Assembly (NCBI GenBank): GCA_000310025.1
Contig: FN649740.1
Coordinates: 641,728 to 705,727 of the forward strand
Direction: 5' to 3'
Source of the DNA: Ectocarpus siliculosus
Taxonomy: Eukaryota; Sar; Phaeophyceae; Ectocarpales; Ectocarpaceae
DNA length: 64,000 bases
Below the pieces are notes generated by a model. The model made no database searches. It was not told the DNA's origin and saw only the letters and a program-made list of their open reading frames with translations. Positions 231 through 38,873 of the stretch are shown here, piece by piece; positions within the stretch are counted from its first letter, which is position 1, and every line of letters begins with the position of its first letter. The position numbers and the translations under genes are program-made.

Positions 231-3200
231 CGCACAAGCTTACATCATCCACGCGGTGTCATTGTGTCCACCCGTACTGCAGGCGACGACCGGCGGCGGC
301 AAGGCGGAGAGCGCGGCAATGCTTCCTCACGTATCAGAACCTTGGATTAACAAGAACGGTTCGCCAAGGGCCGTTAATGCGGCTGAGGCATCGATGGCGC
401 TAGGCAGCGAGATCGCTGCCCAACAGCACGTGGGGAGTCCTGAAGCGACTCGAACTACCCCGGGACAAAGTTGTGGGGCGTTTCCTGGAGGGGAGGGAAT
501 GGTGAAGGCTGTTGTGTCCGCAGATTTCAATGGGGAAATAAAGATTTTCCTTGGTGTCGTTGGAAGGTTAGAAGGATGCGGGTGATCTAGGTCCCATCCG
601 CGGGTATGTAGTATTTGACCATGTTTATGGCGGTGTTGGAGGGTTTGCTCTTGGGCGTTTGCGTGTTTTGGACTCGAAGGTAGGCCAGGAGCATCGTCGC
701 GTGTTGCAAGCGGTGCTGTCTGCGCAAGTATCGAAGATGTGTAGTATTGTTTCTGTTGTCGATGCACGCGGGTGTTGGCGGTGTACGGCCTCCTGGGCCT
801 GCGATGTTTCCACACATCGGTTCCCTTACTGTTCGTCTAAACCGGCAATGTAAAGTACATGAGTATGCATGTTGGCGATCTTGTCTTGTCTGAATGTACC
901 AGGGGGGAGTGTTCCGTGGTTGCCGCCTGAAAGGTAGCAAGTGCACCCAAGCACGCAAGGTGTGGTGATATAGATCTGTTGTGTAAATTGCATCTGTGTC
1001 CCGCGCGAGCCAATTTTCTTCGATAAACAAGGAACACCGATCGACCGGAATCTCGCTCAGCTTTCTTGGGGTCGCCCGCCGTGCTTGGGTTGCCTGGCGG
1101 CATGTTTATTATTCATGGCCAAACCTGCAGCAGCGTGCCCCTACTCGTTGCGCAGGTACTTACAATATGCTCCACAAGGCTTGTGTTCTTTCGTGGTTTG
1201 CCAGTGCGAAGATAACATTATCCTGGCTTCAGTTTTGTGCGTGTGATGGTGGGTGTACATGGTCGCGGTTGCCCTCCGTGATAGAGGTTTTGTAGAAAGG
1301 AAGCGTTGTGGCACCGCCACCGCGTCTTGATAGTATTGTGCGGGAGCGAGAATTTTGACGCCTACAGTACGCCGCGCAAGGAGAGCTAGCGTGTTGTTCT
1401 GCTTATTTTTCTATGTTTGTGTGTACATACACCTTCTGTGTTTTTTGGAGCGGAGAGACTTCGAATCCGGTCCCACCGCCTTGCTGTCCCGCTATTTCGT
1501 GTGCGTCTTTTGGTAGGTAAAATTTAAGTTGTAGATTGTCTACTTGTAGAACGGAACGGAGCAGGTGTCGTGTTGTAGCGCGTCGCTGTGCTTGTGTCAT
1601 GTTCCCCTTCGGGCCCTTCGGGATATTGATGATGTTAGTTGTAGTTTCTAACAGCGACAGCAGCTTGTTGTTCGTGCCTCTTGTCGGTCCGGTCTTCAGT
1701 ATTTTTTCGAATATCTGTCTCTGTTGGTTGTGTGTGTCCGGTTGATATGTGTGTGTGTTCCATAACGGGTACTTCCAAAGTGTGATTCGATCCAACTTGC
1801 TTGGTGCTGGTAGGAATGGATGGTATGTATTCAAGGGGGCGAAAAGTTTCCGAGACATGCCTTTCTCTCAGCAGCAAGTACCTTTCTGCTTGCTCACGAT
1901 ATGTTACTGCGATATTTAGGGGGGGGAGAGCGAGAAGAGAGCTTTCCAAGAGTTGCAGGAGAATCGATACTAAGCACCGTAAGTATCGGCATATCGCAAA
2001 ACCTTCCTTGCAGATGGTAGCATGGTAGCCTACCTGCTCCTGAATAAGGAGTCGAGACACTGCTACATGAGCGATCTTTCATTCAGGCAGGTCCCTCAGT
2101 GGTGCTGGTTGAAGGTGTCTATGCCCGGTTCGATCGGTGGAACCTCTGGGCACGAGTGTCCATTCCTGTACTCAAACCTACTTGTATACTGTATATCCCT
2201 GTCTGTTCTGAATATTAGTAATAGTGCCCGTCCCTCTTGTGAATAGTGCCGGTGAACTTGTCTTTACCGGCACTACTGAGGGCCCTCTACTTACTGTAGT
2301 CCCCCCGTATGTAATTTACACTCCTTTTCATGTTGCACACGAAGACAAACAAGTATGTATGTAGATCTGGCTTACAGCAGTTACAGTACAGTTACAGTCT
2401 CTTGCTTTTTTTGAGTCGAAGGACCAGCCGAAATAGTCCATTTTCACATCATTCTTCTGCTGCCCGTACTACTGTATGCATATATATATCCAAACCAGTT
2501 TGGCTACTGCTGCTGTAGGTATCGCGCACATCAAGACTACAATCTTTCCCACGCAGGAGGAGGACGGGCGGAACCGCCCCCATTTAAAAGCCACGCTGGT
2601 TTGCACGCCGGCGGTCGTACATTCTGAGTTTCTGTCGCCGATATTCTCAGAACCTATATTCGAAAACGACCCCACTTCTTCCGACCCCACTTTTTTTACC
2701 CCACCAAAAAGTGACCCCACTCTCTGCATTTCACTTGATTTCAGAGGAGGTGATCTCCGGTCTCTTCTCTAAAAGCAAGTTGTTTTTCTTCGGTCGATGT
2801 TTCTCGAGCTTCCATCGATAGATTTTCGTGGGGCTGGAAGAGGTGTTCCTCCTGGCCCGTTCGGCCCCTCCTGCGAGTTTCGTGTTGACGCTTGTGTCAG
2901 CTTGTGAGAACGCGTCCGTTGTTGTATGTCTCATTCGTAGATCTCCCTCGTGCGCGAACAACCGAACCACCCCTCCCTCATCATTACCCCCAGTTTTACC
3001 CCCACTTGTCGCAAGTACAGCCGCACCCACGACGGGAAGGATGCACGTCCACGGTTGGTTGTGGTACAGAATCATGCACGAAAGTCGACGACTTAGGACA
3101 TAGCCCTGTTATAATGAGTGAAACATGCCTTAAACGTTCACCGATCACCACTCAGTGTATGGTACCCCTGTACTACGCGAGGTTTCATTTTCTTATCTGG

Positions 3201-3920
3201 TCGGACTGCCTTTATTCCCGCTTTTATTTCGACTTCATTTCCCCGCGTGTGTTTCACTCGGCGGACCTTAGTCCACTTTGTTTGCCCGTGCGCGTGCATG
3301 ACTGATTTTCGCGCCTGGCCTTGCCTGGTTTGTTTCTGGCTTCTTTTGCGGTTTGCCGTTTGGTTGCGGTATTCGTCGCGCTGCAGACAAACACGTGCGT
3401 GCCTGGACCATCACAAAGAATTCCCACCACATCTATGATAATCTTCAATCTTCGCACAAATAACCCATCGCGGCTGCCCTCGGTCATCCTCTCCCGTACG
3501 TACTTGACGACAGGAGAAAAATATGTGGTTCACGCTTCCCCGTCTACCCGACAAAGCGTAGCCTTGCCGATCCTCATCTGACGCCAATCAATGGCTACCA
3601 TGGTCACGGCCGACGGCCATCTGTCGTTTTTCCGACTCGGTACCCATCATGCCAACGCCACAAAAGTCAAGACGAGGAAAATTTTTGCTTCGTTCCTTCG
3701 TTCAACTTCTTATTATCACCGCGAACAACGATACTACTACTATCATCCTCGACCCCCCATAGTCTAGATAGATATCTACCCTCTCCCTGACCACAATAAA
3801 AGGAAAGGGCTTCAGATGAGGCCGGGGCTACCCCCCGGGCTGTTATATATATATATGTGTACACCTAAAATATAGCTGTTCGAGTGATAGCAGCAGGGAG
3901 TGAGTCCGTTTCGGAAGGGA
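231..3920. other. Stretch without a supported gene
   Basis: Open frames here are short, lack matching splice partners and show no recognisable domain. Overlapping frames on both strands have similar length, as expected by chance in GC-balanced DNA. The only structure found is the hairpin at 2245-2274 and a group of GACCCCACT words at about 2670-2720. Confidence 0.5.
2245..2274. repeat. Perfect 9-bp hairpin, dispersed repeat
   Basis: AGTGCCGGT at 2245-2253 pairs with ACCGGCACT at 2266-2274 across a 12-nt loop. The sequence just after it, CGGCACTACTGAGGG, recurs near 36.63 kb beside another AGTGCCGGTGA. This marks a small dispersed element, probably MITE-like. Confidence 0.45.
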
Positions 3921-4208: not shown

Positions 4209-7200
4209 TGTTCGGCCTACAATACGTTTTCTGTGACGCTGGGTGGGCCGGCCGGGGATGCCGACGGCGCGTCAGACGACGAAGCCGAGGAGTACAGGTT
4301 TCACGCAGTAGACACAGCGTTCCTGTCCCGCCCCCTTTCCACGCCCACAGATGTGATCACCTTCCATGATGCTGACCGAACTAGTGCCCTTTTCGCGTGG
4401 GCTGGCCTCCAACAAATCGTGCGTGACCGCTGTCCTGACTCTTATACAGACCTTGGTTTTGCACATCTTGTATCGAGTCCGTTCCTCGACCAGCTAGAAC
4501 CGTCCATACGACAGAGTGTGTTTCTGTTAGTGTCTGCTCTCCGTAGGGCTTCCTTCACCGAGGGTCCCCAGGGAACCGCGGTGGTGGTGCACAATGGGGG
4601 AATTCGGTTGCCGCTAGCTCGTACGGCAACCAACGACGATTTTCAGCATGATCTGCAGCTCCCACAGCAGGATTCTGCACGCCGTGCGCATGGTTCCGGA
4701 GGGACCAAGGACTACAGTCTGTCGGCGGCTCCTGCCTCCGCCAGCCGGAGGAGCCGTTGGGGTGATCAAGCCCCCACGGCCAAGAGCGGGACGGCCGAGC
4801 GCACTTCGCGAGGGCCGGGTGTTGAAGATGGCGGGCGGGGGTACGCGGAATCTTCGTCCAAGCGTCGACACCGCGAGAGCCGGAGCCGGAGCCGGAGCAC
4901 CGACCGCCAGCCACGTCACGCACCTTCGTCTCGGCGCGGTCGCAGCCGGAGCAGCGACCGCCGCGGGAGCAACACGCCTTCGCGTAGGCGTAGCCGCAGC
5001 CGGAGCCCGACGAGGAGCGGGGGCAACAGCAGGGCGACCAGCTCGGACAGCGGTCGAGGGGGCAAAGGGCGACGGAAGTCAGGTCGGGGTCGCAGGCAAG
5101 TGCAGTATGATCGGTGTGATTTTCGTAGTTCTGGGCTGTTGGGGGAACGTAAGACTGCCTCAGAAGATGGTTCACTCTGTTCTTCGCCACCGGTTTTGCC
5201 CCCCCCCGCTGATGTAGGACCGCCGCCCGTGTCTACTTTGGCGTTCAAACTTGCCAACATGCAACTTCGTGAACATTCCGCCGCGGTTAAAAGCCATGCC
5301 CCTACACACACCGTGGTAGATCAGCCCACATCTTCCTTGCTTTTGGACGAACGGGTTGGTTCACCACGCAATGCTGCATCACACGCCTCGACTTCGGCTT
5401 CCCGTACTGAAATGCTGTTGGAACAAGTGCTCACTCTCCTGCGCGCGCAAACGCCTGGCCAAGTTGTGGATGCTGCTGCCGACTCGAATGTACCACCTTC
5501 TGTGCCCTCGAACGCCCCTAGCATGCCACCTTCTGCCCCTCCCTTTTCGTCACGGGCGCATTTGGCACCATTGCAAGACCACGCTTCGAGTTCCTCGGGA
5601 GTTCGTTCAGGGTACGAGGTTCACGATGAGGCAGCTGCCAGGGCCACGGCAGTGTCATTGTCATCAGCGCCGGCCGCCCCAGCTCTGCCGCAACAGCCTT
5701 TGGTGGTGTCATCAGCGTCGACCGCCCCAGCTCTGCCGCAACAGCCTTTGGTGGTGTCATCAGCGTCGACCGCCCCAGCTCTGCTACAACAGCCTTTGGT
5801 GGTGCCCCCCCCTCTCCCGCGTACGTCTATCCTGATCGATCCTCGCCCGGCGACCGGCCACGTCATGGCGTCACCGGCCAACGCGACATCGCCGTTGCCT
5901 CAGGATGATGCTAGCTTGCCTTTGTCTTCCACGGGGGCGAGGACGAGGCAGGAGGCTTTGGACGCTGCGGACGCCGCTGCAGCGGAGGCCGACACCATCC
6001 GCATTCAAGACAAGATGGACAAGCTGAAGCCGGAACAACTTGATAGTGTCACACGCTTGCCCCTTGGTTCTGATCCTGATGAATTTGCTCGTTTCGCGTC
6101 TAGCTGCAAGGGCGTGGTCACCGAGATCTTCAACAAAAGCGACGTCAAACGCAAGCAGACTTTCGCTTCCTCCACCTGGGTCGCAGGATGGCTTCCGTTG
6201 TTGCGCAAACGTGTTCGTGCTGCTGTCGTTGAAGGTCAAACCACCAACCGTGCCACGCTGGAATTTCTTGATGCCACTTTCCAACAGGTAGAAAACCATC
6301 TGCGCAAGGAACCGGCCGGGCCCTCGACGTACGCGTTCTTTATCCAGAAATTGGCGGCCGCTTGGGACACTCAAGACAAGAGCTCGGGGATCGATCGCCT
6401 TCGTAGTTTTGGCGTGTCCACCGGCGAGACGTACGGAGAATACATTCGTCGCTATAAGGCTCTGGCCATGACTGTCATGGTTTCTCATCACGCGTTCAAG
6501 CCTTCGGATGCACAAGTGCAGATAGCTGTTCGAGACTCCATGTTGAAGCAGTTTCCCGTAGTGTCTGGACAGGTGTACAAGGATGAGCAGCTCTCCATGG
6601 AAGCCCCTTTTGGGCGACATGCTTCGTGTTTGGACGATATGTGGGATGTGTTGGACAAGCGGGCATTCGCGCACACGCCGGCGGTACATGGGGACGATTT
6701 TTTTTCGGTGTCTTCCACGAATGCTAGGAGTTCGTCTGCGGTTTCGCGTGCTGTAGCTTCTTCGGCGTTGCATTCGTCGGTGACCCCTTCGTGGAGCCGA
6801 GGTTCTTCGGCTGCGGTGATGAGTGTTGACCCTCTGCCTAATGATGATCGGGACCCTTTTCTGTTGCACTACAGCGACTGGCCGTTGCAAGGACACTTTC
6901 AAGAGGTGTACAATGTCGCTAGTGAGATGGCTCTAACCAAGAATGACCCGCCATTGTTCACCCCCTTGGTCTCAGCTGAAGACCGCCGCAACGCGCTTCG
7001 GCTGTACAAGGGCAAGTGCCTCAACTGCTTAGGCGAAGATCACTCCTTCAAATCCTGTACTCGTGGTTTCATTAACGCCACAGGCCTGCTTAACAATGAC
7101 ATCAAGCTCTGCATGGAAAAAGATCCCGCACTTTGGAGTCGGTGGAAAAAGCGCATGACCTCGTATAGACGCCCTACAGGACGCAACCCACCCCGTAATC

Positions 7201-7319
7201 ACTCCTCCGGACGAGCCCGCCGCTCATTTGACACATCGGACATGAAACAGTCCTCACACACAGAATCCTCGTCGGAGACTTCCACTTCGGCTAAGAGGGG
7301 CTGGAAGGGTAAGAAATGA
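4209..7319 (+). CDS. gag: Gag polyprotein (retrotransposon capsid/nucleocapsid)
   Basis: This is a structural protein that would package the element RNA. The frame is open from 4209 to a TGA at 7317-7319, about 1,036 codons. In order it has an acidic N-terminus, a long Arg/Ser-dipeptide-rich stretch (about nt 4855-5090, resembling SR proteins), Pro/Ala/Ser-rich linkers with three tandem copies of an APALPQQPLVVSSAST-like unit (nt ~5668-5805), a helical capsid-like region (nt ~6000-6660), and one CCHC zinc knuckle starting at nt 7017 (CLNCLGEDHSFKSC, spacing C-x2-C-x4-H-x4-C). A basic Ser-rich tail follows. There is no in-frame ATG before nt ~5258. The nearby ATG at 4208 is in the preceding frame, so an indel near the TTTT run at 4227-4230, an upstream splice or a non-AUG start must be assumed. 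The length exceeds usual Ty3 Gag because of the low-complexity insertions. Confidence 0.85.
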   Translation, partial: CSAYNTFSVTLGGPAGDADGASDDEAEEYRFHAVDTAFLSRPLSTPTDVITFHDADRTSALFAWAGLQQIVRDRCPDSYTDLGFAHLVSSPFLDQLEPSIRQSVFLLVSALRRASFTEGPQGTAVVVHNGGIRLPLARTATNDDFQHDLQLPQQDSARRAHGSGGTKDYSLSAAPASASRRSRWGDQAPTAKSGTAERTSRGPGVEDGGRGYAESSSKRRHRESRSRSRSTDRQPRHAPSSRRGRSRSSDRRGSNTPSRRRSRSRSPTRSGGNSRATSSDSGRGGKGRRKSGRGRRQVQYDRCDFRSSGLLGERKTASEDGSLCSSPPVLPPPADVGPPPVSTLAFKLANMQLREHSAAVKSHAPTHTVVDQPTSSLLLDERVGSPRNAASHASTSASRTEMLLEQVLTLLRAQTPGQVVDAAADSNVPPSVPSNAPSMPPSAPPFSSRAHLAPLQDHASSSSGVRSGYEVHDEAAARATAVSLSSAPAAPALPQQPLVVSSASTAPALPQQPLVVSSASTAPALLQQPLVVPPPLPRTSILIDPRPATGHVMASPANATSPLPQDDASLPLSSTGARTRQEALDAADAAAAEADTIRIQDKMDKLKPEQLDSVTRLPLGSDPDEFARFASSCKGVVTEIFNKSDVKRKQTFASSTWVAGWLPLLRKRVRAAVVEGQTTNRATLEFLDATFQQVENHLRKEPAGPSTYAFFIQKLAAAWDTQDKSSGIDRLRSFGVSTGETYGEYIRRYKALAMTVMVSHHAFKPSDAQVQIAVRDSMLKQFPVVSGQVYKDEQLSMEAPFGRHASCLDDMWDVLDKRAFAHTPAVHGDDFFSVSSTNARSSSAVSRAVASSALHSSVTPSWSRGSSAAVMSVDPLPNDDRDPFLLHYSDWPLQGHFQEVYNVASEMALTKNDPPLFTPLVSAEDRRNALRLYKGKCLNCLGEDHSFKSCTRGFINATGLLNNDIKLCMEKDPALWSRWKKRMTSYRRPTGRNPPRNHSSGRARRSFDTSDMKQSSHTESSSETSTSAKRGWKGKK

Positions 7320-7328
7320 CTTGCCGAT
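7308..7328 (+). other. In-frame TGA between gag and NADAR frame, possible readthrough site
   Basis: Gag ends AAG AAA TGA CTT. The same reading frame then stays open from 7320 to 9158. This is the arrangement of elements that express Pol by stop-codon suppression, and TGA followed by C is a leaky context in many eukaryotes. A point mutation creating the stop is equally possible. Confidence 0.4.
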
Positions 7329-9158
7329 GGCGGAGTTCAGCCGGTACTACCGTCAACAGCAACCACCGTGCACCCTTTTGGAGTCTCCCAAGATGTTCGT
7401 GTACAGCCTACTTCTTTGGATACTCCCGATGTCCCCAAATCACGTTTAGTTTCTCGGCCCGCCTCCTCATCGCCCGCCTCATCGTCTGCTGGTATTGGAC
7501 ATGACAAACCCACTCCGGCACAACCTTTGTGGTGTGGGCGACAGGGAGGTAAGACGTCGAGCGGTTCACCCCTGCTCACCTCGTCGTCTCGGGTTACAGA
7601 AGGAACAAGAACCTCGTCTACTACTGTTCGCCAAGACTCTTCTGGTGTTGTCAGCCGGGCCTCTTCTCGGATAGCACACGAGCCTTCTTCTACATTCGCC
7701 GGGGATCCTGTCGATTCTCCTTCTCTTTCGCAGCTTTCGTTGTCTTCGACCGTCCGCTGCCCCCGTGTGACAGCACCTGATACGAATGCGTCTTCCTCTG
7801 CTGCCCACAACGTGCTGACTGCACCACTGCCATCGGGATCGGATGGTAGTGCCCACCATTCGGTGGAAGGTTCGGCTCCTTTGTCACGGGGGAGTAGTCC
7901 AGAGCGCCCTGCGTCCATTCACGCACATTCGTCTGCCGCAGGAAAGACTTCTCCTAACGAACGGGTCTCTCATAGCCGAATGGCCTCTGCTAACATTGAC
8001 CTCGCCGGAGCCGCCGCTCGTAGGCCGCCCTCCGGATCATGGACCGGAACGACTTCGCCCGCTCCTCCCTCGCTTTCTGGGTCCTCCCCGTCGGAGATGA
8101 GGACCCGTCCGCTTGGCTCACCCCCGCCCGTGCCTGGTGCCCGCTCTTTGCCCCTCCGCCCTGCACCGGCTCCGCCGTTTGATGACAAATGCGAGTACGC
8201 TTCGGATGACGTCCTCCTCTTCTGGAAACCTCCGTCTGTGTTCTCGCAATGGACTCCCTCGGCTTTTGACGTACTGGGGGTACGTTATTCATGTGGTGAG
8301 CAATTTATGATGTCTGAAAAAGCGAAGTTGTTTGGGGATATGACGTCGTATGACAAAATCATGGCTGCAACCGATCCTAAGACACACAAGTACTTGGGTC
8401 GTAACGTACGTCCTTTTGACTATGCCGAATGGGAGCGTCGTCGAGAAGAGATCGTGCTTACGGGGTCGTATGCCAAATTCGCTCAGAACCACGACATGAA
8501 ACAACATTTACTGGAGACGGGTACCCGCCTCCTTGCGGAAGCCAGCCCCTTTGATCGTGTTTGGGGTATCGGCATGTCTGCATGCTTTCCGGAGGCTAGC
8601 ATTTCATCCAAGTGGGCGTCTAGCGGTAAAAACTTGTTGGGAAAAGCTTTGATGGAAGTTCGGCGCCTTTTGCGGGATCATCCCCTGTCTGGCGAAGCTC
8701 TCCCCGCCTCCACTTCCCCCACCCCCCCCATTTCGCAGCCTCTTCCCCATGGCCGTAGACGCATCCATGAGGTTGCTACCGCGGCCGGTTCGTCGTCACG
8801 GGAGGACCGGGGTGAAGACCCAGCTTGTCTCCGTTTGGACGCTCCGGGGGACCATGCTTCTGGTGTTCATCTGGTGGCCTCGACCTCCGCTTGTGCAGAC
8901 CAACCTCCTCTTCTGGAACACGGGCCCGATCTGGTCGGCGGCACGCTCCTGTTGGACTCGGACTCTTACACCACCCGGGTTCTGCTGCATGGCGGACCTA
9001 CAGCCACTTCTCAACTCGCGCGAGTGGCACTTGCTGGACTCTGGGTCTCCTGCGTCTTTTGTGTCCGACTCCGTGGTCACCGCCATGATAGCTGCTGGAG
9101 CCTTGACAGCTGGCAGCGTTCGTGTTTCGCCCTCTCGTCGTTGGGGTGGGTTTGGTGA
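7320..9158 (+). CDS. NADAR-domain protein within the retrotransposon Gag-Pol
   Basis: This 612-codon frame continues the Gag frame after its TGA and has no ATG near its start, so it is most likely a Gag-fused product. The first ~290 residues are Ser/Pro/Thr-rich linker. Residues ~296-455 (nt ~8205-8685) form a NADAR (YbiA/DUF1768-type) domain. Visible landmarks are LLFWKPPSVFSQW, a GEQFMMSEKA segment in place of the usual VEHYFQ helix, KFAQN, the LLETGTRLLAEASPFDRVWG block and the closing NLLGKALMEVRRLL. Known NADAR proteins act on ADP-ribose-related N-glycosides, including removal of ADP-ribose from guanine in DNA. The catalytic core looks undamaged. The last ~150 residues are linker that overlaps the protease frame by 410 nt. 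A role in reversing host ADP-ribosylation of element nucleic acid is my inference. Confidence 0.85.
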   Translation, partial: LADGGVQPVLPSTATTVHPFGVSQDVRVQPTSLDTPDVPKSRLVSRPASSSPASSSAGIGHDKPTPAQPLWCGRQGGKTSSGSPLLTSSSRVTEGTRTSSTTVRQDSSGVVSRASSRIAHEPSSTFAGDPVDSPSLSQLSLSSTVRCPRVTAPDTNASSSAAHNVLTAPLPSGSDGSAHHSVEGSAPLSRGSSPERPASIHAHSSAAGKTSPNERVSHSRMASANIDLAGAAARRPPSGSWTGTTSPAPPSLSGSSPSEMRTRPLGSPPPVPGARSLPLRPAPAPPFDDKCEYASDDVLLFWKPPSVFSQWTPSAFDVLGVRYSCGEQFMMSEKAKLFGDMTSYDKIMAATDPKTHKYLGRNVRPFDYAEWERRREEIVLTGSYAKFAQNHDMKQHLLETGTRLLAEASPFDRVWGIGMSACFPEASISSKWASSGKNLLGKALMEVRRLLRDHPLSGEALPASTSPTPPISQPLPHGRRRIHEVATAAGSSSREDRGEDPACLRLDAPGDHASGVHLVASTSACADQPPLLEHGPDLVGGTLLLDSDSYTTRVLLHGGPTATSQLARVALAGLWVSCVFCVRLRGHRHDSCWSLDSWQRSCFALSSLGWVW

Positions 9159-12100
9159 TGGACCCGCCCTTGTGACCACTCGGTCAGTTCGTCTCACCGT
9201 TAATTTTCTTCATGGAGCTCGAGCTACCGCTTCGTTGGCGGTCTGGGCCTGCGTTGTTCCAGATGCCGCCATGGGGCACGCCGTGCTTCTGGGTCGCGAT
9301 AGCTGGATGCGGTTCAACTCTCGAGTGTTCACCACCCTCCCCCACCCTGGACCGGACGGCCGGGTTATGGGCGAGCTCACGCTCTCTCCACGTTTCACCG
9401 CTGGCGCTTGTGTTTACGCTACACACGACGACGCTCCTGCCTCTTCGTTTCACCTCAAATATGCAGGGAGCTCGGGCATTTCCTTGGGGCCGGAGCCTGC
9501 CCTTGTTGAGGTGGACCTCGTCCGTTCTTCGGGCATGCCTGCGCTGATCGGCGAATATCTCGTATCGTTCCGACCTGAAGTGGGTGCACTTTCGTCCCCC
9601 GATGCATTTGTTTCCAATGGTCTTCAGCGTATTCCCCTTGCAGGTTGTGCCGAATTGGAGCCGGGCGACGTTATTGGCGTGTCTGCTGCACCGCTATTAC
9701 GAGCACCGGTAGAAACCCTGAAGGCGGCTCCATCTTCGACTCCCACCGCCCCCCCGTCCTCTACATCACCGCATCGGGTCAACGCCGTTGGCCCCAAGTC
9801 CGGGACTCGCCGCTCTCCGGACCCAGCCTCCGCCCCGCCTCCTCCGAAGCCGCCTCCGCAAGAACTGCTTGACCGCTTCTCCGAGGCCCAGCGCTCCAGT
9901 TTTCTGCGATTGTGGACTAGGCTGCCCGCACATATGCACGACATCGCTTTCGATCTACACAACCCGGGATGGACACCGGAGGCTATTGATCGTTTGGCCG
10001 ACGCCCTTGTTGAGTATTCCGACGTGTTCTCTACTTCGAAAACCGATTTTGGTTCCTGCACCGTCATGCCATTCACTCTTTCCGTCCCCGCAGGGACGAA
10101 GCCCGTCGCATCACGCCCGTATCGTATTAACCCGTTAATGCAGAAGAAAGTGGATGCCGTCTTGGACCAGTATTTGGCGGCAGGGCTCATTCAGCATTCC
10201 ACTTCTCCCTGGGCTTCTCCCCTGGTCGTCATCCCCAAGAAGGACGGATCGGTTCGCATCACCGTCAACTACAAACGACTCAACGCCCTGGTGGACTTGG
10301 ATGGACAACCTCTCCCTCGGGTGGACGGTATCTTGGATTCTCTCTACACCGGGAAAGTGTTCTCCATCTTCGATCTCAATTCGGCCTTCCACCAGATCGT
10401 TTGTGACGAAGACACTGTCCCGCTCACCGCCTTTTGCACTCCCACGCAGTTGTTCGAATGGCTTCGGATGCCGCAAGGAGCCAACGCCAGCCCGTCTTGG
10501 TTCGTCAAGGTCATCAACAGAGTGGTGCACGGTCTGGAGCGTGTGCTTGCTTATCTGGATGATGTTATCTGTTTCGATGAGGAACCTCTAGGACACGTGC
10601 TCAACATGATCGAGTTTTTCAAACGGCTGCGCCAGTACAACCTCAAGCTGTCTCCAGGGAAGGCTCGTGTCGGCGCCACCCACGCCAATTTCCTCGGTCA
10701 CACCATCTCCCCGGCTGGGGTTAGCCCTGATGGCGTCAAGGTTCGGGCGCTCACGCACATGCCGCCGCCGACGAATGTTAAGCAGCTTAGGAGCCTCCTC
10801 GGTGGCCTCAGCTACTACCGGAAATTTCTTCAGAATCTCGCCACCAAGGTGCGGCCTCTCAACTCTCTTCTCAAACAAGGCGTCCCCTTCAAGTACACCC
10901 CGGGCATGGTCAAGGTTGTCAAAACGTTGTTGAGCGAACTCGCGCGTCCCCCGATTTTGGTCTTCCCGGATTGGGCTGCGGTCGAGGACAACAGCCGTTC
11001 TCTCCGTTTGTGCTCCGACGCGTGCATTGACGGCTTTGGAGCCTCCCTGGAACAAGAACAACTCGATGGCTCGGTAAGACCCATTGTGTACATCAGCCGC
11101 GCTACTCTTCCGGCGGAGCGGAACTGGACTGTTCTGGATCTGGAAGCTGGTGGCATTGTTTGGGCCATTAAGCGCCTTCGGGGCTATTTGTGGTCAACCA
11201 AGTTCATCATCTATTCAGATCACAAAGCCTTAGAGAGCATTGGAAAGGTTGGAGAACACAACGCCAGGGTACAACGATGGCTCGAATTCCTGTCCAACTT
11301 CACCTACACCCTGAAATATCGGAAAGGTTCGGCAAACGGCAACGCGGATTTCCTTTCGCGGCTGCCTTTACCAGCACAAGACACGGACACAACCGGCCCC
11401 GATTGCATTGATGGTGTCGATCACGCTGGTGTCTTCCTCATTCGGGCTTGTGGACTCAACTATCACTCGTCGTCTACGCCGGAGGTCGGTTTGGGTGGGC
11501 TCCGCCCTCCCTGCTCGGCGGGTGTCTTTTCACCCCCAGCGCTACAGCCATCTGATTTTGGGGATTTCCGCCGTCATCACCCGCGCCTGCTGGATGTTCG
11601 ATCGGACTCCCCGATTGATTATCAAGATTCTCGGAGGTCTTCGGGAGTCTTCGTGGTCTCACATGTTTTCACGTCTCCGGTGCCTGTTTCCTGTTTGGCT
11701 CCGGCTACGTCCCGCGGAATGTCTCCGGCCGCGTCTTTGGCGAATAGATATGTGCACGTCCTGTCTTCGCTTCCGGAGCGGGGACCGCTCATTTCTTCAC
11801 GAACTCGGGCCAAGACCACCGCTGCTTCTGGAGGCACCGTCACCGGTCCCACCTATTTCGGACGCCAGCCGCGGGCTACCATCGTCCCTCGGGCATCGTC
11901 CACTGCCCGTCGTCCTAGCCGGTCCCGCTCGACAAACAAGACCATCCGGACCGGCACGCGTCCCCTGCCGTCATCTGCGACGTCCACGTCGGCGTTTTCG
12001 TCGACTGCCTCTGCGCCACAGGTGCCTTCGCCGGCATCGGCGCGCGCTGCATCCTCGGTTTTGCCCTCTATCCAGGTTTCGCCTGGGACTTCGCCCCGCC

Positions 12101-12688
12101 CAATGCCTCCTCCTGAGGTGACACCGCGGTCTGCAACTTCACCACTCGTTGAGGCCCCTCGTTCTCCAGCCTCTTCCGTGGGATCGCTTGTCTCTGGGTT
12201 GGAGCCGACTGACTTGGACCCCTCACATTTGCGAGCTTGCGTTCAGAGTTTCGGCACTGTGGACTGGGCTAGGGAACAACAGCGGGAGAGCGAATGCGTG
12301 GTGGCTATGCGCTTTCTGTCTCATGGCTCTCCCTTCCCCCCCCCTTCTGACTTGCTCACCCTTAGTGCCCCGCTCCGCTCCCCTCGGTTGGACGATGTCC
12401 TTGCGTTGGCGGCGAAAACCAGGCTGCACACGACCGATGAGAACGTCACCCTCCTCGTACATAAACCGGCGCCATCGCCGATCGGGCGCTCTGGCGGCAG
12501 GACCACTCGTCTACCGGATACTGGTGTGCCCCGTGTCTACGTGCCCATGTTGATGCGTCCGTGGGTCCTTCATGCCTGCCATACCGCCGCGTCCTTCCAT
12601 CTTGGTGTTCATCGTACACAACGTCTGCTTGAGCGTTTCTACTGGTGGATTGGTCTGGATCGGATCCGTACGCTGGTGGCTTCGCGCG
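8749..12688 (+). CDS. pol: Pol: aspartic protease, reverse transcriptase, RNase H, start of integrase
   Basis: This frame is +1 relative to the Gag/NADAR frame. It shows a retropepsin active site (LLDSGSPASF, Asp codon at 9037) and a Ty3-type RT at nt ~10100-10900. RT motifs include KKDGSVRITVNYKRLN, the first catalytic Asp in FDLNSAFHQI, MPQGA and the YLDD box at 10552-10563. RNase H follows (nt ~11005-11370) with Asp in LCSDACIDGFG, Glu in LDLEAGG, and Asp in IIYSDHKAL and NADFLSR. About 380 codons of low-complexity Pro/Ser/Arg linker separate RNase H from the integrase zinc finger, unusually long for this family. The His pair of the HHCC finger is in this frame near 12570-12620, but its Cys pair is in the next frame. 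The ATG at 8749 is probably not the true start. Translation is expected to enter from the NADAR frame between ~8750 and 9010. The frame itself runs to 13170, but beyond ~12688 it encodes nothing recognisable. Confidence 0.88.
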
Positions 12689-14452
12689 TGTTTGGTGTGT
12701 CAAGCTCGCAAGACTTCGCTTCAAACCGCTCGGTGGCCCGTCATCGCTATGCCATTGCCACAGGGGCCTGGTACGGTCGTAGGCGTCGACTTCTTCGGCC
12801 CCCTGCCCGTGACTGCCAAGGGCAACTCCTACATTCTATTGTTCACAGACCGTTTCAGCCGGAGAGCCGACATGTTCGCGGTTACAGCGGCGGAATTTAC
12901 GGCGAAAGGGACGGCTCACATCTTCGTCAACCAGTACATGACCAAGTGGGGATGTCCGACTACGTTATTGTCGGACAACGGACTGCATTTTTGCTCGAAG
13001 CTCTCCATGGCGATCTACGAGATGATGAAAATCAAGAAAGTCACCACCAGCTCCTACCACCCGCAAACCAACGGCGGCACGGAACGCGTCAAGCACACGA
13101 TGGCTCAGATGCTTGCGGTAGTCGTCAACGAACAGCAAAACGATTGGGACATACATCTCCCGCACGTTGAATTTGCCTACAACAATTCCGTGAACCAGTC
13201 GACTGGATTGGCGCCGAACGAGATCCATATCGGACGCATTCCGCGGCTTCCGCTTTCGGTCTTCGATCATCCAACGGTAGGTGGTCATCAAAGCTTAGCC
13301 CGTGACCAACTCGAGTACTGCAACTTGGCTGTCGATCGTCAGCGCCGGGCCTACGACCTGGTCCGTGAGTACAACGCCCTGAAGATCTCGCGAGTCGAAC
13401 GCCGTAATTCATCCCTGCTGGACGCCATCCACAAGCTCCCGCAATTTACTGTTGGCGGGTGGGCTTGGGTCTACAACACGGCTGCTACAATTCGACAGGG
13501 TGTGCGGAACGACACGGATCACCAGGTGCTCAAGGCCAAATTCGCGCTTTCCTGGACGGGGCCTTACAAAGTTCTTGCGGTGGGTCCCGCGTCGGCCGAC
13601 GCCACCCCAGATGGAAGCCCGTTGGCGCGTAAACTCCTCTACCTGGACCTGCCTTCTGATCTTTCCGGCCCAGCAGCTCGATGTCGCGTATCTGTCCTTC
13701 GTTGCAAGCCCTGTCGCAATCCGTACGAGAAGGACGACCTGCCCCAATCTCTACCCGCTGAGCTTTCGCGTTATGTCCTGCACTCTTTCGGCGATAAATG
13801 TCCACCGTTTCACGTCACCGCGGATGATGTGTCGGTGCCTGTCGGGCGCCTCGAGGTCGACTACATTTCGGGACACCAATTGGTGCGGGGCCGTAGCGGC
13901 GTTCTCGCTGTCCTGTACCAGACGCATTGGCTAGGCCTGACTACTCCTTCTTGGGAACGGGAGTCCGACCTCGATCAATTCCGTCGACACATCCTCTTGT
14001 ACTGGTCTCGAGAGGTCTGCCAAAGCAAGCAGGGTAACCGCACGTATCGAGTGGCTCGGACACGCGCGGCACAACGGGAGCTCGCCCGGAATCGTGGCGA
14101 ACGCTATTTGCCTCCTGGGGCTGACCTTGTGCTTCACGCGACTTGGCTCCGTCGATTCAGCATTTCGCCCCTTCCAGTAGGAGCGCGGCTGTGGTACAAG
14201 GCCCGCGACGGATTATGGTGGACAGGACGTATTGGTGCTCATCAGGACGGCTCGTACATCGTTCGATTTCTGGATGACCCGGGCCCCAGCGTTCTCCCTC
14301 TGCCTGCGCACCTCTACTCCACCGCCTTGGACGCCGTTTGTGGATCGTGGTGTTTAGAAAAACATCGCTCGCGCCCTTTGGGCGACGCCCGGGATCGCAC
14401 TCCTCCCATTACTGACTCCTTACCGTCGGCTGTTCCCAATATCTCTTCCTAG
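12684..14452 (+). CDS. pol: Pol continued: integrase core, chromodomain and Tudor-like domain
   Basis: This third frame takes over within the integrase zinc finger, starting with CLVCQARK (Cys codons at 12689 and 12698). The DDE core follows: Asp in VVGVDFFGPLP (nt ~12785), Asp in LLSDNG (nt ~12972) and Glu in PQTNGGTER, with exactly 35 residues between the last two. The usual NGQTER is NGGTER here. A chromodomain-like segment lies at nt ~13836-14009 (VGRLEVDYISGHQ to LLYW). After a basic spacer, a Tudor/Agenet-like stretch at nt ~14178-14304 (ARLWYKARDGLWWTGRIG, then IVRFLDDPG) precedes the TAG at 14450. Chromodomains direct chromovirus integration to marked chromatin. A second reader-like fold is unusual. 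The frame change may be a single-base indel or programmed. Confidence 0.85.
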
Positions 14453-14491
14453 CGTCGCCGTTTTAGGTTCGAGCTGGTCTATCTTGGATTT

Positions 14492-14533
14492 TGTTTGTTT
14501 GTTTGTTCGTTTGTTTGTTTGTTTTTTTTTCTT
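14492..14533. repeat. (GTTT)n microsatellite and T-run
   Basis: About nine GTTT units with one GTTC variant are followed by a run of T shortly after the Pol stop codon. Confidence 0.85.
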
Positions 14534-14560
14534 TTCCTTCTTGTTTTCTCCGAGTGGTTT

Positions 14561-14745
14561 GCCTCTGAACACTTGGAAAAAGAGTTCCCCAAGTTTCGTC
14601 GGTGTTATTTGCCTCTGAACACTTGGAAAAAGAGTTCCCCAAGTTTCGTCGGTGTTGTTTGCCTCTGAACACTTCAACAACGAGTTCCCCAAGTTTCGTC
14701 GGTATGTTCGCCTCTGACCAGGCAAACCCCGAGTTTCTCGTGTTT
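14561..14745 (+). repeat. 50-bp tandem repeat in element 3' region
   Basis: Units start at 14561, 14611 and 14661 with GCCTCTGAACACTT and contain GAGTTCCCCAAGTTTCGTCG. A partial, diverged fourth unit starts near 14710. The first two units are nearly identical, indicating recent array growth. Confidence 0.85.
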
Positions 14746-15729
14746 CCCTTGGTTCGCCTTTCGCCAACTCATTTTTCTTTTTAGCTCCACCGTATCGCCG
14801 AAGTGTCATCTAGGCTTGTTACTTCGGGCTTCCATCCCGTGGCGTCGTCTTCTCCCGTGGACATTCGTCGTCGTCCACACTTCGTTCCACTTCGTCTCCG
14901 TCATCGCTACCTGCCGGCGACGCCTTCATCATCGTCGAGCCCTTGAGTCGTTGTGTTGTTGTGTGTATCTCTGCGATTTTTCTGTGTTATCTGAGTCTTC
15001 CTGTGTTGTGCTTTGCCCGCGCGCCAGGGAAAGTTCGTCAGATCGCTTCTCAGACGTTGATCATTCATGCTTTGCATTCTTGGTTTTCATCAGGTCTTGC
15101 CGTGGCCGCCTCTCTATACGGTTTGAGTTCTCTGACACTCTGGAAATCTGTTGTCAGTGTGTTCGCCTGCCATTCATTTCTCCTGCTCTTCTTTGACGCT
15201 TTCCTAGATTGGTTGCGTTGATATCTTCCCCTTTACGTCGCGTCCAGTATCAAAGGCCGTATTCGTTCGGAAATTTTGCTTGGGTTTTGAGTTTTGTTGC
15301 AGTATTTTGGGGCTCTCTCGGGTAGTCGCCCTCATTCCTCCCATTGTTATACGCGCGGGTGCGCGTAAACGAGTGGTGTGTGGCGTTTAGGTTTTGACTT
15401 TATTTCTCTTGCCGTCGTCTGTTGCGGATAGCGTGCTGTGCAGCACTACATATTTTTCTTGGCCTTATCCCTTCATTGATAGGAGCGTTGTCATTGAGAT
15501 GTCGATGTGTCGTCTCGTGGCCGTTCGCATCCATCTTTCGTCTCAATGATGGTGTGGGGGTTGATTCGGGATGTTTCTACAACTCACCCTCCTTTTTGGA
15601 TGTTTTGTGAAGAGTCATATCTTCGATTCATGAGCATCAATCGTCAGCTAAAATCTTCGTTGTAGCTTTTAGGAGTTGAGCATTGATTTGAGTATAGAAT
15701 CTGCATATATGATATTCAGGGTGGGCTAG

Positions 15730-15919
15730 TGTTAAGGAGTGTGGCTGCTAGCTTAAATAGGGTACATCTTATTGTTGATAGGATGTGGGTCGGTCTCAGG
15801 AGGTATACCCTTCAGACACCTACCCTCTTAGGATTTTGTCTAGTCTGCGTACCCCCCTGAGGTGAAGTTGGATCCCCACTTCACCTCAGACCCTTGCTGA
15901 TCGTCTCTCAGCAATAACA
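15730..15919. mobile_element. LTR-like 190-bp element with TGTTA...TAACA ends
   Basis: The segment begins TGTTAAGGAG and ends CAATAACA, forming the classic TG...CA inverted ends. Inside are a TATA-like TTAAATAGG and a perfect 12-bp inverted repeat (CTGAGGTGAAGT / ACTTCACCTCAG near 15855-15887). It could be a solo LTR of a small LTR element. Flanking bases do not show a clear target duplication, and it has no counterpart upstream of Gag, so assignment to the large retrotransposon is unproven. Confidence 0.35.
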
Positions 15920-16119
15920 AGCAACTTTCTCATCTCTACGTGATCGTGGACAAGCGTGTCAACGACAGAACCTACCTTCATCTATCTCTAGGAGCAAGCT
16001 ACCACCCACGGCTTCCCCTTCCTTTAAATATGCGTACATACGTACGCATATACATACATGCATACGCACGCATTTCATACCTCTCACTGAAAAGACTCCA
16101 CCACATCCCGTTCGAACGT

Positions 16120-16345: not shown

Positions 16346-16783
16346 TACATTTTTGCGCCGGTAGAAATCCTTCGACTAGAAAGTGTTAAGGAGGACCCGA
16401 TTCGCAGGGTATCCGTCGATTGATTGACTTTTACCAGAATCGGTACACCTTCGCACATGGCGTCAGCTGGATATTGGTTCGAATCTCCTTGGGTGCACGT
16501 TTTTTCTCCTGACTTGGACATTTTCCCATGGACACAATGTGTGTCAGTCCTGAGAACACCTCTTGGAATCGATCCTACAAAGAACCTTGTGACACTTCCA
16601 TCGAATTACCCGTTCTGGCCACAAGAGGTTCCCAGTTGAGGGTAAATTCTGTGGGTGGAGAGTGTTAAGGAGGACCCAATTCGCAGGGTATCCGTCGATT
16701 GACTTTTACCAGAATCGGTACACCATCGCATACATACATACATACATTTTTGCGCCGGTAGAAATCCTTCGACTAGAAAGTGT
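16341..16783 (+). repeat. Rearranged duplicate blocks (GTTAAGGAGGACCC family)
   Basis: Two blocks each occur twice. One has GTTAAGGAGGACCC and CTTTTACCAGAATCGGTAC (about 16387-16450 and 16660-16725). The other has TTTTTGCGCCGGTAGAAATC (about 16350-16386 and 16745-16783). Their order is swapped between copies, so a tandem duplication was cut by a ~200-bp unrelated spacer. Confidence 0.7.
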
Positions 16784-35807: not shown

Positions 35808-38056
35808 ATGGACGACTCTGAAGTAGCCTACATCGCCAGGTCGAAGCGGGATGTCGCTGAGCACTTCGGAGTAGCGTGGTCCACCATGCAGCCGCGGCTC
35901 GTGGGGAAAGTAGGAGGGAAGGTGAGCAATAACCCTATCCCGGACTCTATACGTGCTTCCCGCGGCAACGACGTCTGAAAAATATCGACCTGTAGATTTT
36001 ACCTATATGAAAAGATGAGTCCGCCGACAACGGTGCGATGTAATCGGCATGTGGAGACACACACCGGCGGCACCGCACAGCCAAGTGTATGGCGAGTTTG
36101 TTTGTGGCTGCTCTTGTAGGTGTAGCTTGGAAAATCACGCGCAAGTGGTGCTCGACCGGTGAAGAAGCACCCGCTGTCACTGGCTCATGGTCGTTCGTGT
36201 CGATGACAATACTGTACTCCTACGCGTGGAAACTACAACAAGCAGCCGGCGTCGTCAGCGCGCGCCACAAACCTACCAGACGAAGTGGAGACCGAGCTGT
36301 TTCAGCATGTGTTGTGGCTGTGCGAGAACGGCCACTCGACGAACTGGGACAACATCAAAGCAATTGCTTGGAAGCTGGGGAAGATGGCTGGGATAGAGGG
36401 TGAGTTTGTATGTTTTTCTGCACCGCGGCAGTGTGGGAACGGAGCAGGAGTGTCGCGCAGGGGGGGGTAACGGCAAGGATCGCTCGCTACATCACCGCTG
36501 GCGCAAAGGGGATGGGAGGGGTTGGGGTTAGATCAGTGATAAGGTGCGGTTTCGTCAATCGTATGCATAAGTTGAATAGTGCCAGTACGGTGCAGTGCCG
36601 GTGACGTAACTCTGGCGGGCACACATCGGCACTACTGAGGGACCCCTGCTGTATCCTGCCCGGTAGTCGTGATGGTAGGGTCTGATCTGGCATTGTAGTG
36701 TAGTACAGCAGTGCAATGCGGTATACGTGCATCAGTGTCTGTTTGTGGCAGTCGAACCCGGTTAGGGAATCAGAGGACGAACGAAGAAATCAATTGTGAA
36801 GTAGACGCGGAACAAGCAATCCGCCTTGCATACTTCGTTGTTAATGGCTTGGTCGCTTTGCCTGCGCGTGGCTGTGAGCCGCATCAAACCCCGCGTGCGG
36901 TTGATCCAGCGCTCGATGCTGAGCAAACTTCGCCCCCCCCGGATATGGCGCAGACTTTGCGGCGTCAAATCATTGGCTGAAGAGGTTCAAGGTTCGCTTC
37001 CCTGCCCTCGAAGCTCGCTACAGCCATCACCTACGTACAACCCAGCTCAGCAAGGTTGGTTTCATTGCCTAGGTTTTCTGACGGAACGCAGCAGCGGAGG
37101 GGATAAAATTTGTCTGTACGACCTGGTTTTGGGAACGGGGGTACACGAAGGGGCCAAAAGGCAGTTTGAAAGATGATTGTTCGCTTTTCAATGTTGAACG
37201 AGCACTCTTATTTTCGTGTGGTATGCACGTCTCTTAGCGTCACACCCCCTCCCCGTTCGTTCGTCGATAAATAGTAATACTGTAGGTCATGCTGCCCGAA
37301 TTCATTCAACCTTCACGCACGACGTCTTGCTCCGTGTGGCCTCGTCGTTCGGTGACACCGCCAGGCGGATATGGCCTACGCCGAAAGGGGAAGGGACGAG
37401 CGCGACAACTCAGACGCTACCTCGTTGGGTGACGGGGGTTGCAGCGGTGGTGAAGGTGGTGGTGGTGGAAGGAGCTACGTTGTTCCAACTGACCTTAAGG
37501 TGACCACCGCTGCGGGCGGGTACCTCGCGCTGGAACGTGCTAAAGTCGAGGCCGAGGCTAGTACGGCTCGACGGCATCAGCAGCAGCAGGCGGCGGGAAT
37601 CGCGCCGAACACGGCGGGAGCGGTGACACCGGCAGCGACGCCGGCGGGGGCGGGGGCGGCGGCGGGGGCGGCGGCGGGGGCGGCTACCTCGACGTCTTCT
37701 GCACATCAAGAAGCACAGCTGCGGCTTGCTCCCGCACCGGTGGGAGGCCTGCCGGGGCACGTGCTCAGCGCCCACCCTTATAACGGCTCGCAGCTTCAGA
37801 TAGCGCCGTCGCCGCACGGTCGCCACAGATTGCTGGATTCGACGGTTAGGGGCGGGGTCTGGGGACAAGCGGGGACGGGCGTGCTGGTGGGTTCGCCAAG
37901 TACACTCGGAGAGATATCGCCCACGACGGCACCTCCCCCAAATTTCCAACTTCAGCAACAATACCAGCACCTCGGCCTCGGGCTTCATCAGGCGGGACAG
38001 ATGGGAATTGGAGGACAGAGGATTGTTCCGATACCCGGGCAGCTGAAGCAGGAGCC

Positions 38057-38111
<55 letters not shown>

Positions 38112-38873
38112 CACCTTGTGAGCGGAGGAGGTGCGCCCGGAGTTCCCTCGGGACAAATGGATGCCAGCATAATGCAAGCGGTGCGATCGCAAGGTCCGAC
38201 GCCCATGCAATTCGCCGGCATAGCGGGTCAGAACATGAACATGGGTTTGGGGGGGGGAGCGCATCCGCAGCAGGTGGGTATAGTTATGGACGCAAGGGGT
38301 GGTGCCATGACTACCATGTACGCCCCGGCCGGGGTGGGGGGGGCGGGCACGCAAGCCATGGGGATGGTGGGGCCATGGCAAGCGGCGGTCGGGTGGCCCG
38401 AGCAACTGATGGGGCCTTGGCAGCACGTGGCCATCTCACAGGTTCAAGGAATACAGCAACAGCAACTCCTTCACCCGGCCGCTACTCCACCGAGCAGCTA
38501 CGAGAGCCAGGGTATGCTCAATCCCAGTGGTACCGGGCTCGCATTGCTGCTGCAGCAGCAGCAGCAGCAGCTACTACAGCAACAACATCAACATCATCAA
38601 CAACGACCGCAACAGCAACAGCAGCACCAGCAGCACCAAGGGCCAGCTTCTTCGGCATGGTTGAATTCGCCCGTAGGGCTTGGTTTGGGGCAGCATCCGC
38701 AGCCGGCGATGTTGGCGTCCGTCGCGCTAGGGCATGCTGGGGGGAACGGTGGCGGCGGCGGTGGCGGGCCCGAGTCGCTTCTCGATATGCAACAATACGC
38801 TGCTGGCGCTACCGCTGGTGCCGGTTCTGCGGAGCAAGAATCAGTACAGCATCAGGAGCAGCCGCCAAAGTAG
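35808..38873 (+). CDS. Helix-turn-helix (psq plus CENP-B type) protein with Gln-rich tail, four exons
   Basis: Exons are 35808-35921, 36246-36399, 36954-37054 and 37365-38873. The donors and acceptors (GTGAGC/CAG, GTGAGT/GCAG, GTTGGT/CAG) keep one frame with phases 0, 1 and 0, giving about 625 residues. Exon 1 gives a psq-like HTH (VAYIARSKRDVAEHFGVAWS). Exons 2-3 give a CENP-B/Tc5-type HTH: LPDEVETELFQHVLWLCENG, then NHWLKRFKVRFPALEARYS. Both resemble the DNA-binding half of pogo/Tigger transposases. Exon 4 has no DDE domain but a 500-residue Gln/Gly/Ala-rich tail with a run of about 19 Gln. The likely role is sequence-specific DNA binding with an activation-type tail in the nucleus, as in host genes derived from transposases (inference). 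The ATG at 35808 is the first in frame; an upstream exon cannot be excluded. Confidence 0.65.
36583..36640. repeat. Dispersed AGTGCCGGTGA...CGGCACTACTGAGGG repeat
   Basis: It carries the same end words as the hairpin at 2245-2290, here with a longer and imperfect loop. It lies in an intron of the helix-turn-helix gene. Confidence 0.45.
37365..38873 (+). CDS. Large last exon: Gln/Gly/Ala-rich tail of the HTH protein
   Basis: This single open exon of 502 codons ends in TAG at 38871-38873. It contains an Ala/Gly tract from GGC/GCG triplets (nt ~37640-37685), the main CAG tract (nt ~38056-38112), further Gln/His-rich stretches (nt ~38550-38640) and a Gly run (nt ~38740-38767). If the four-exon model is wrong, the ATG at 37371 would still allow this exon to stand alone. 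A long opposite-strand frame across it is a by-product of the triplet repeats. Confidence 0.7.

Follow-up and report, generated by a model that had tools for sequence, protein, structure and literature searches.

A retrotransposon that carries a NADAR domain has been described before. According to PMC12477816 (2025), the Ectocarpus sp. 7 NADAR-Gypsy lineage (e.g. Gypsy-12_Ec32) has a YbiA-family NADAR at the N-terminus of the Gypsy Pol and a putative chromodomain at its C-terminus, and a NADAR is also found in the Tx1 long interspersed nuclear elements (LINEs) of the oyster. (This and the other papers cited here by PMC number were accessible in part, and the statements about them refer to those parts.) Since this is the architecture met in the present study, in 64,000 nucleotides of Ectocarpus siliculosus DNA (contig FN649740.1, positions 641,728 to 705,727; the window hereafter), the fusion as such is already known; no second report of it was found among the literature titles searched, a search in which preprints lay outside and subscription papers were thinly covered. 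The element of the window is a long terminal repeat (LTR) retrotransposon with the Ty3/Gypsy-type order of Pol domains, recognized at 4226-16028 of the forward strand by homology to other copies and LTR comparison. Compared by description, it very likely belongs to the lineage of Ectocarpus sp. 7: the NADAR stands at the Pol N-terminus in the window copy and in two further copies of this genome (loci L021 and L022) as it does there, whereas in place of the putative chromodomain the Pol C-terminus gave a weak chromodomain-like match (13853-14008, PF00385, E=0.092, 13.1 bits, under the cut-off of 25.1). The UGA at the Gag-Pol junction, the pocket residues, the ratios of nonsynonymous to synonymous substitution rates (dN/dS) and the host NADAR gene are reported here and were not found in the accessible part of that paper.

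Among the other known systems, the Tx1 LINE of Crassostrea gigas is likewise a retrotransposon with a YbiA-type NADAR, but it is a non-LTR element whose domain lies in ORF1 and not in Pol, and was reported to be divergent (PMC12477816). The NADARs of nidoviruses, hepe-like viruses and picornaviruses are also embedded in a replication polyprotein; these, however, are RNA viruses with an RNA-dependent RNA polymerase and no reverse transcription (PMC9503650).

A preliminary description of the window, made from the letters alone, had proposed a complete NADAR domain at 8205-8685, and this was borne out. In the frame opened at 7320, residues 301-452 (8220-8675, forward strand) matched the Pfam NADAR profile PF08719 over positions 2-163 of 163 with E=6.2e-46 and 157.1 bits, the cut-off being 35.1, so the profile comparison suggested there was significant and the match cannot be attributed to chance; NADAR was the sole Pfam domain in this frame. 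The comparison with YbiA agreed as well. The YbiA fold is present, with 32% identity in structural alignment to the Phytophthora nicotianae NADAR (PDB 8bau) and 28% to Escherichia coli YbiA (2b3w), neither of which is described within a retroelement Pol in the sources at hand. When the residues are numbered from 8190, E37, K44, R71, W81, R85, E117, D122 and W125 (first codon bases at 8298, 8319, 8400, 8430, 8442, 8538, 8553 and 8562) align with E43, K50, R79, W89, R93, E125, D130 and W133 of 8bau, and thus the ADP-ribose-contact residues are, by alignment, kept. The residues linked to catalysis, a Lys and the YbiA-type Glu, are retained. The catalytic position is a Glu (E117), as in the YbiA subfamily, and not the Asp of the DarT1-associated BC4488 antitoxins. 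The latter belong to the same superfamily, and in our own reading of the alignment K67 corresponds to the Lys required for toxin rescue in E. coli C7; unlike in that family, no DarT match accompanies the domain here (exon-wise search).

The domain had been placed in the Gag reading frame, between Gag and the protease and reverse transcriptase (RT). It does share the frame of the upstream Gag-like open reading frame (ORF), but it is located behind the TGA stop of Gag itself (7317-7319, next base C) and therefore belongs to Pol. The upstream ORF, a remnant at 4226-7319 whose frame is open from 4209, was taken as Gag because of its position and its CX2CX4HX4C zinc knuckle (7017-7058, found as a motif); its Pfam search gave no match. 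The stop is followed by a Ser/Pro/Thr-rich N-terminal linker of Pol (7320-8219), the NADAR, an aspartic protease active-site motif LLDSGSP (9031-9051; motif only, no Pfam match), of which the LLD-GSP columns are invariant across six Pol proteins, the RT (10231-10707, PF00078, E=1.3e-25, with YLDD at 10552-10563), the RNase H domain (10990-11301, PF17917, E=2.8e-27), the zinc-binding H2C2 part of the integrase (12541-12663, PF17921, E=1.3e-5, 25.7 bits, cut-off 25.5) and the integrase core (12764-13063, PF00665, E=3.5e-7, 30.9 bits, slightly under the cut-off of 32.6). All of them lie on the forward strand. This protease-RT-RNase H-integrase order, in which the protease is recognized by its motif alone, is that of Ty3/Gypsy elements. 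The proposed arrangement thus holds for the order of the parts and not for a common frame: in the window copy the frame of the NADAR differs from that of the protease and RT, and the frame of the RT from that of the integrase core. Both L021 and L022 have a knuckle ORF ending in a stop and, behind it in the same frame, an ORF with NADAR, protease and RT, which in L022 runs on to the integrase. Since these copies keep one frame, the two frame changes of the window, one separating NADAR from protease and the other preceding the integrase core, are copy-specific defects. Among the domains of Pol the NADAR comes first, in agreement with PMC12477816 on Ectocarpus, and the same order was found in the Pol proteins examined.

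The preliminary description had also called for a search for further elements of this kind. When the same genome (189 Mb, 492 contigs) was searched with PF08719, at least 150 NADAR matches were obtained (150 scored of 230 candidates, all 150 over the cut-off), and the domain is not confined to a single decaying copy. An open frame of at least 2,000 amino acids was present in 26 of the 150, two of which (6,365 and 10,887 amino acids) are implausibly long. A set of 61 copies was grouped by eye into seven subfamilies, I-VII; it comprised the window copy, which falls into subfamily IV, ten-kilobase loci for the 20 matches of highest score, and 40 short loci hand-picked for variety. All eight pocket residues were found in 54 of the 61, while some copies had stops or frame changes inside the domain. 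Many copies of one retroelement family thus contain, as read from the sequences, the entire NADAR domain together with its ADP-ribose-contact residues.

Purifying selection across copies, for which that description had proposed a test, was found between subfamilies. For the NADAR of IV and VII dN was 0.155 and dS 0.95 (0.154 and 1.03 by YN00), and for V and VI 0.165 and 2.43; Fisher tests on rounded counts gave 3e-15 and 2e-27, and the other 19 subfamily pairs were saturated or undefined at synonymous sites. The pooled polymorphism ratios (pN/pS) within subfamilies I to VII were 0.64, 0.48, 0.23, 0.18, 0.29, 0.23 and 0.14, obtained from 55 of the 61 copies, with just 3, 3 and 1 pairs in II, VI and VII and with non-independent pairs throughout. 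At the protein level seven Pol sequences were compared, some of them incomplete (L021, L022, L028 and the relatives P0003, P0004, P0005 and P0007, the last minus its first 600 residues). Mean identity was 58% in the NADAR, 53% in the protease region and 67% in RT plus RNase H, and 25% in the linker behind the NADAR and 34% in the linker before the RT. Several rows are truncated in the linker in front of the NADAR, which makes a mean unusable there, and in this part L022 was 18% identical to L021 and 17% to L028. The between-subfamily values support purifying selection on the NADAR.

The position of the domain behind the Gag stop raises the matter of how Pol is translated. In 9 of 21 loci (L011, L012, L015, L020, L021, L022, L026, L027 and the window) the NADAR frame contains no stop other than this TGA on the way from Gag to NADAR; the remaining loci have extra stops or differing frames there. 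The stop is TGAC at all 18 junctions of these loci that could be aligned (11 of subfamily I, 2 of II, 3 of III and 2 of IV), the junctions of L016, L023 and L028 giving no alignment. Downstream, subfamilies I-IV have a possible stem of 6 to 10 pairs from position 12 (the U of UGA being 1), behind an 8-nucleotide spacer. Two of the six core stem pairs covary between subfamilies, the first being C-G or U-A and the third G-C, A-U or G-U, and a loop pairing downstream is possible in each of the four (CUCCC/GGGAG in I, GCACAC/GUGUGC in III, four pairs in II and IV). In the window the candidate readthrough-type RNA structure, which is suggestive, spans 7328-7368, with the stem at 7328-7333/7350-7355 and a possible pseudoknot at 7342-7345/7365-7368. 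The arrangement resembles Tca2 and the Gag-stop-Pol junction of murine leukaemia virus, different elements which have an in-frame stop, a short spacer and a predicted pseudoknot; in Tca2 these are a UGA, an 8-nucleotide purine-rich spacer and a potential pseudoknot (PMC2194720). Readthrough of the UGA is the likely route to Pol, judged from these sequence features. Independent initiation would be the rival route, and the first in-frame ATGs past the Gag stop of the window copy are found at 7980 and 8097.

Thirteen proteins matched the searched region. An RT is also present in seven of them. Five of these, at 48-68%, are from ENA, Logan and EukProt records, and the other two, at 92% and 89%, are proteins of Ectocarpus sp. 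CCAP 1310/34. The RT tree, which took in NADAR-bearing relatives only, and the NADAR tree share two groups, one of subfamilies I and II with P0005 and P0006, the other of III and IV with P0001, P0003 and P0004, an agreement that is expected if the domain was inherited together with Pol; P0007 joins the second group in the NADAR tree, and its place in the RT tree, which is unrooted, is between the two groups. In P0007 (EukProt g13940.t1) the gene model fuses GAG-pre-integrase and SH3_retrovirus matches, which we take to be Copia-like, with a NADAR-bearing Pol, and the protein is probably a chimera of nested elements. Three further proteins, P0011, P0012 and P0013 (1483, 1301 and 1164 amino acids), have a NADAR and no further Pfam match over the cut-off; a YTDD motif occurs in P0011 and a weak match to RNase H (E=0.046) in P0012, and the three may represent other retroelement types with a NADAR. 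NADAR-like stretches were also seen in 24 viral contigs of IMG/VR (L076-L099, 9.7 to 529 kb), with 30-48% identity in the best segment and no match to the Pol query outside its NADAR.

Stand-alone NADAR proteins of 209-252 amino acids were found in Ectocarpus, Scytosiphon, Pylaiella and one EukProt species. In this genome the host gene (L075, G000:C24, about 2125203-2127066, minus strand) has four exons with GT-AG introns, and its predicted protein begins with a Cys/His-rich stretch, PGCSRPCFIEPNGRVHDYCGVTH; a similar N-terminus was noticed in EukProt P0166 and metagenomic P0143. In a 22-row set these stand-alone NADARs cluster with the element domains, while the named bacteria fall outside (support 91/81). 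PMC12477816 reports that outside Ectocarpus nearly all blastp hits were bacterial and suggests a possible horizontal acquisition. The stand-alone host proteins add to that picture of nearly only bacterial hits, and here it is a spliced brown-algal gene that clusters with the element domains. The NADAR tree would be compatible with transfer from host to element, from element to host and from a shared donor, and favours no direction.

As the joint best explanation, to which we give a probability of roughly 0.45, the NADAR of this brown-algal Ty3/Gypsy lineage would be a Pol-borne, readthrough-made ADP-ribosyl N-glycosidase of the particle that acts on the nucleic acid of the element. The lineage would retain the YbiA-type NADAR as the first domain of Pol, and the domain would probably be made solely when ribosomes pass the UGA of Gag. 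In the particle it would then be as scarce as the protease, RT and integrase, and would sit beside the RT as a part of Gag-Pol, most likely as an ADP-ribosyl N-glycosidase. Its substrate would be the element nucleic acid, above all guanines of the genomic RNA or of the single-stranded cDNA, or alternatively adducts derived from NAD by which reverse transcription would be blocked. Bacterial, phage and oomycete NADARs strip ADP-ribose from guanine (PMC11125620; PMC11543638). A more far-reaching form of this explanation is rather unlikely in our estimation: brown-algal Gypsy particles would carry their own de-ADP-ribosylase beside the RT, by which cDNA or genomic RNA is kept free of host-made guanine-ADP-ribose, and the host NADAR gene and the element domain would be of common source, the eraser having passed between host and element.

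Several results weigh against the particle N-glycosidase. At the junction, the stem length was reached by 279, 1, 214 and 343 of 2000 shuffles in subfamilies I, II, III and IV, and stem plus pseudoknot by 58, 1, 15 and 209; the folding energies were at most about two standard deviations below those of the shuffles, and the flanks of the Tca2 junction alone were insufficient for readthrough in Saccharomyces cerevisiae (PMC2194720). The 61 copies are a non-random sample of the 150 matches, and the copies of subfamily I, with the highest pN/pS of the seven (0.64), are for this reason considered near neutral decay. NADARs may also process riboflavin intermediates or small ADP-ribose derivatives (PMC11125620; PMC9503650). 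Finally, the DarT-like writer of guanine ADP-ribosylation that the preliminary description had brought into play was not recovered: the DarT family (PF14487) gave no match in this genome at E<=0.001 in an exon-wise search, which can miss a spliced gene, and so the guanine-writer part of the explanation is left without a candidate here. A KptA-like writer was not found either, with the same limit of the exon-wise search. Four short PARP exon matches were obtained (E 4.5e-6 to 4.3e-4, all exceeding the cut-off of the family), and PARP-type genes may exist in this genome, as judged from these matches.

Such PARP-like exons fit another possibility, doubtful as we see it, that an active NADAR acts on small molecules or host targets, clearing NAD-derived signals, or ADP-ribose attached to proteins or nucleic acids of the host, as a general counter to host ADP-ribosylation and not in the service of the element's cDNA. 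The retention of the pocket in most copies agrees with this too, and PMC9503650 proposes host ADP-ribosylation as the target of the polyprotein NADARs of positive-strand RNA viruses, and small derivatives as that of phage NADARs; the location in Pol between the UGA and the protease, however, would tie the domain to the particle and to the stoichiometry of the RT. A role of the NADAR in processing the RNA intermediate, such as NAD-derived caps or termini, is quite unlikely. RNA processing was suggested in general terms for the Ectocarpus and oyster elements (PMC12477816, section 5), but an RNA substrate for NADAR was not found in the accessible parts of the cited papers, and the genome lacks a KptA-like match in the exon-wise search. 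We assign a low probability to a role as a reader of ADP-ribose or NAD, in which catalysis is not needed and the domain anchors Pol or the pre-integration complex on ADP-ribosylated chromatin, parallel to the chromodomain-like tail. Chromatin readers are reported in all four Ectocarpus Gypsy lineages (PMC12477816) and the window copy has its weak chromodomain match, but the catalysis-linked Lys and Glu are retained beyond the binding residues, and NADAR and integrase lie at opposite ends of Pol. That the domain is a captured passenger, now functionless and spread by hitch-hiking alone, would suit the stops and frame changes of some copies and the pN/pS of subfamily I, but is already disfavoured and very improbable in view of the low dN/dS between subfamilies, the pocket complete in most copies, and a conservation near that of the protease amid divergent linkers.

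As for the rest of the element, the homology of the window copy to other copies starts at 4226 and ends at 16028; the copy is 5'-truncated, being devoid of the 5' LTR, the leader and everything before 4226, and retains the 3' LTR (15730-16028, forward strand, by LTR comparison). In the two full-length copies examined the LTRs are 298-299 bp long, 5' and 3' LTRs are 99.7% identical, and 4-bp repeats, GTTT and AGGG, as expected of target-site duplications, were read by eye at the outer LTR edges; one of these copies is G000:C25:884529-898318, 13,790 bases as computed from the LTR positions. A 50-bp tandem repeat occurs three times in the 3' untranslated part of the element (14543-14703). Upstream of the truncated end, 2900-3855 is part of a different multi-copy repeat with matches on C58, C23, C8 and other contigs. 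The stretch behind the 3' LTR (16384-16733) recurs beside some other element copies in either orientation and overlaps short repeats. Further away, at 37356-38873, there is an open frame of 505 amino acids rich in polyglutamine and glycine.

Should the domain be active, particles of an LTR retrotransposon would carry a repair enzyme for nucleic acid or NAD metabolites. This would hint that in a eukaryote reverse transcription is hindered by ADP-ribosylation, a conflict of a kind known from bacteria and phages. The particle de-ADP-ribosylase, if true, would imply a defence of brown algae against retroelements by ADP-ribosylation of nucleic acids. With its pocket residues retained, open Pol frames at hand and a homologue in the host, the domain can be tested directly for such activity.
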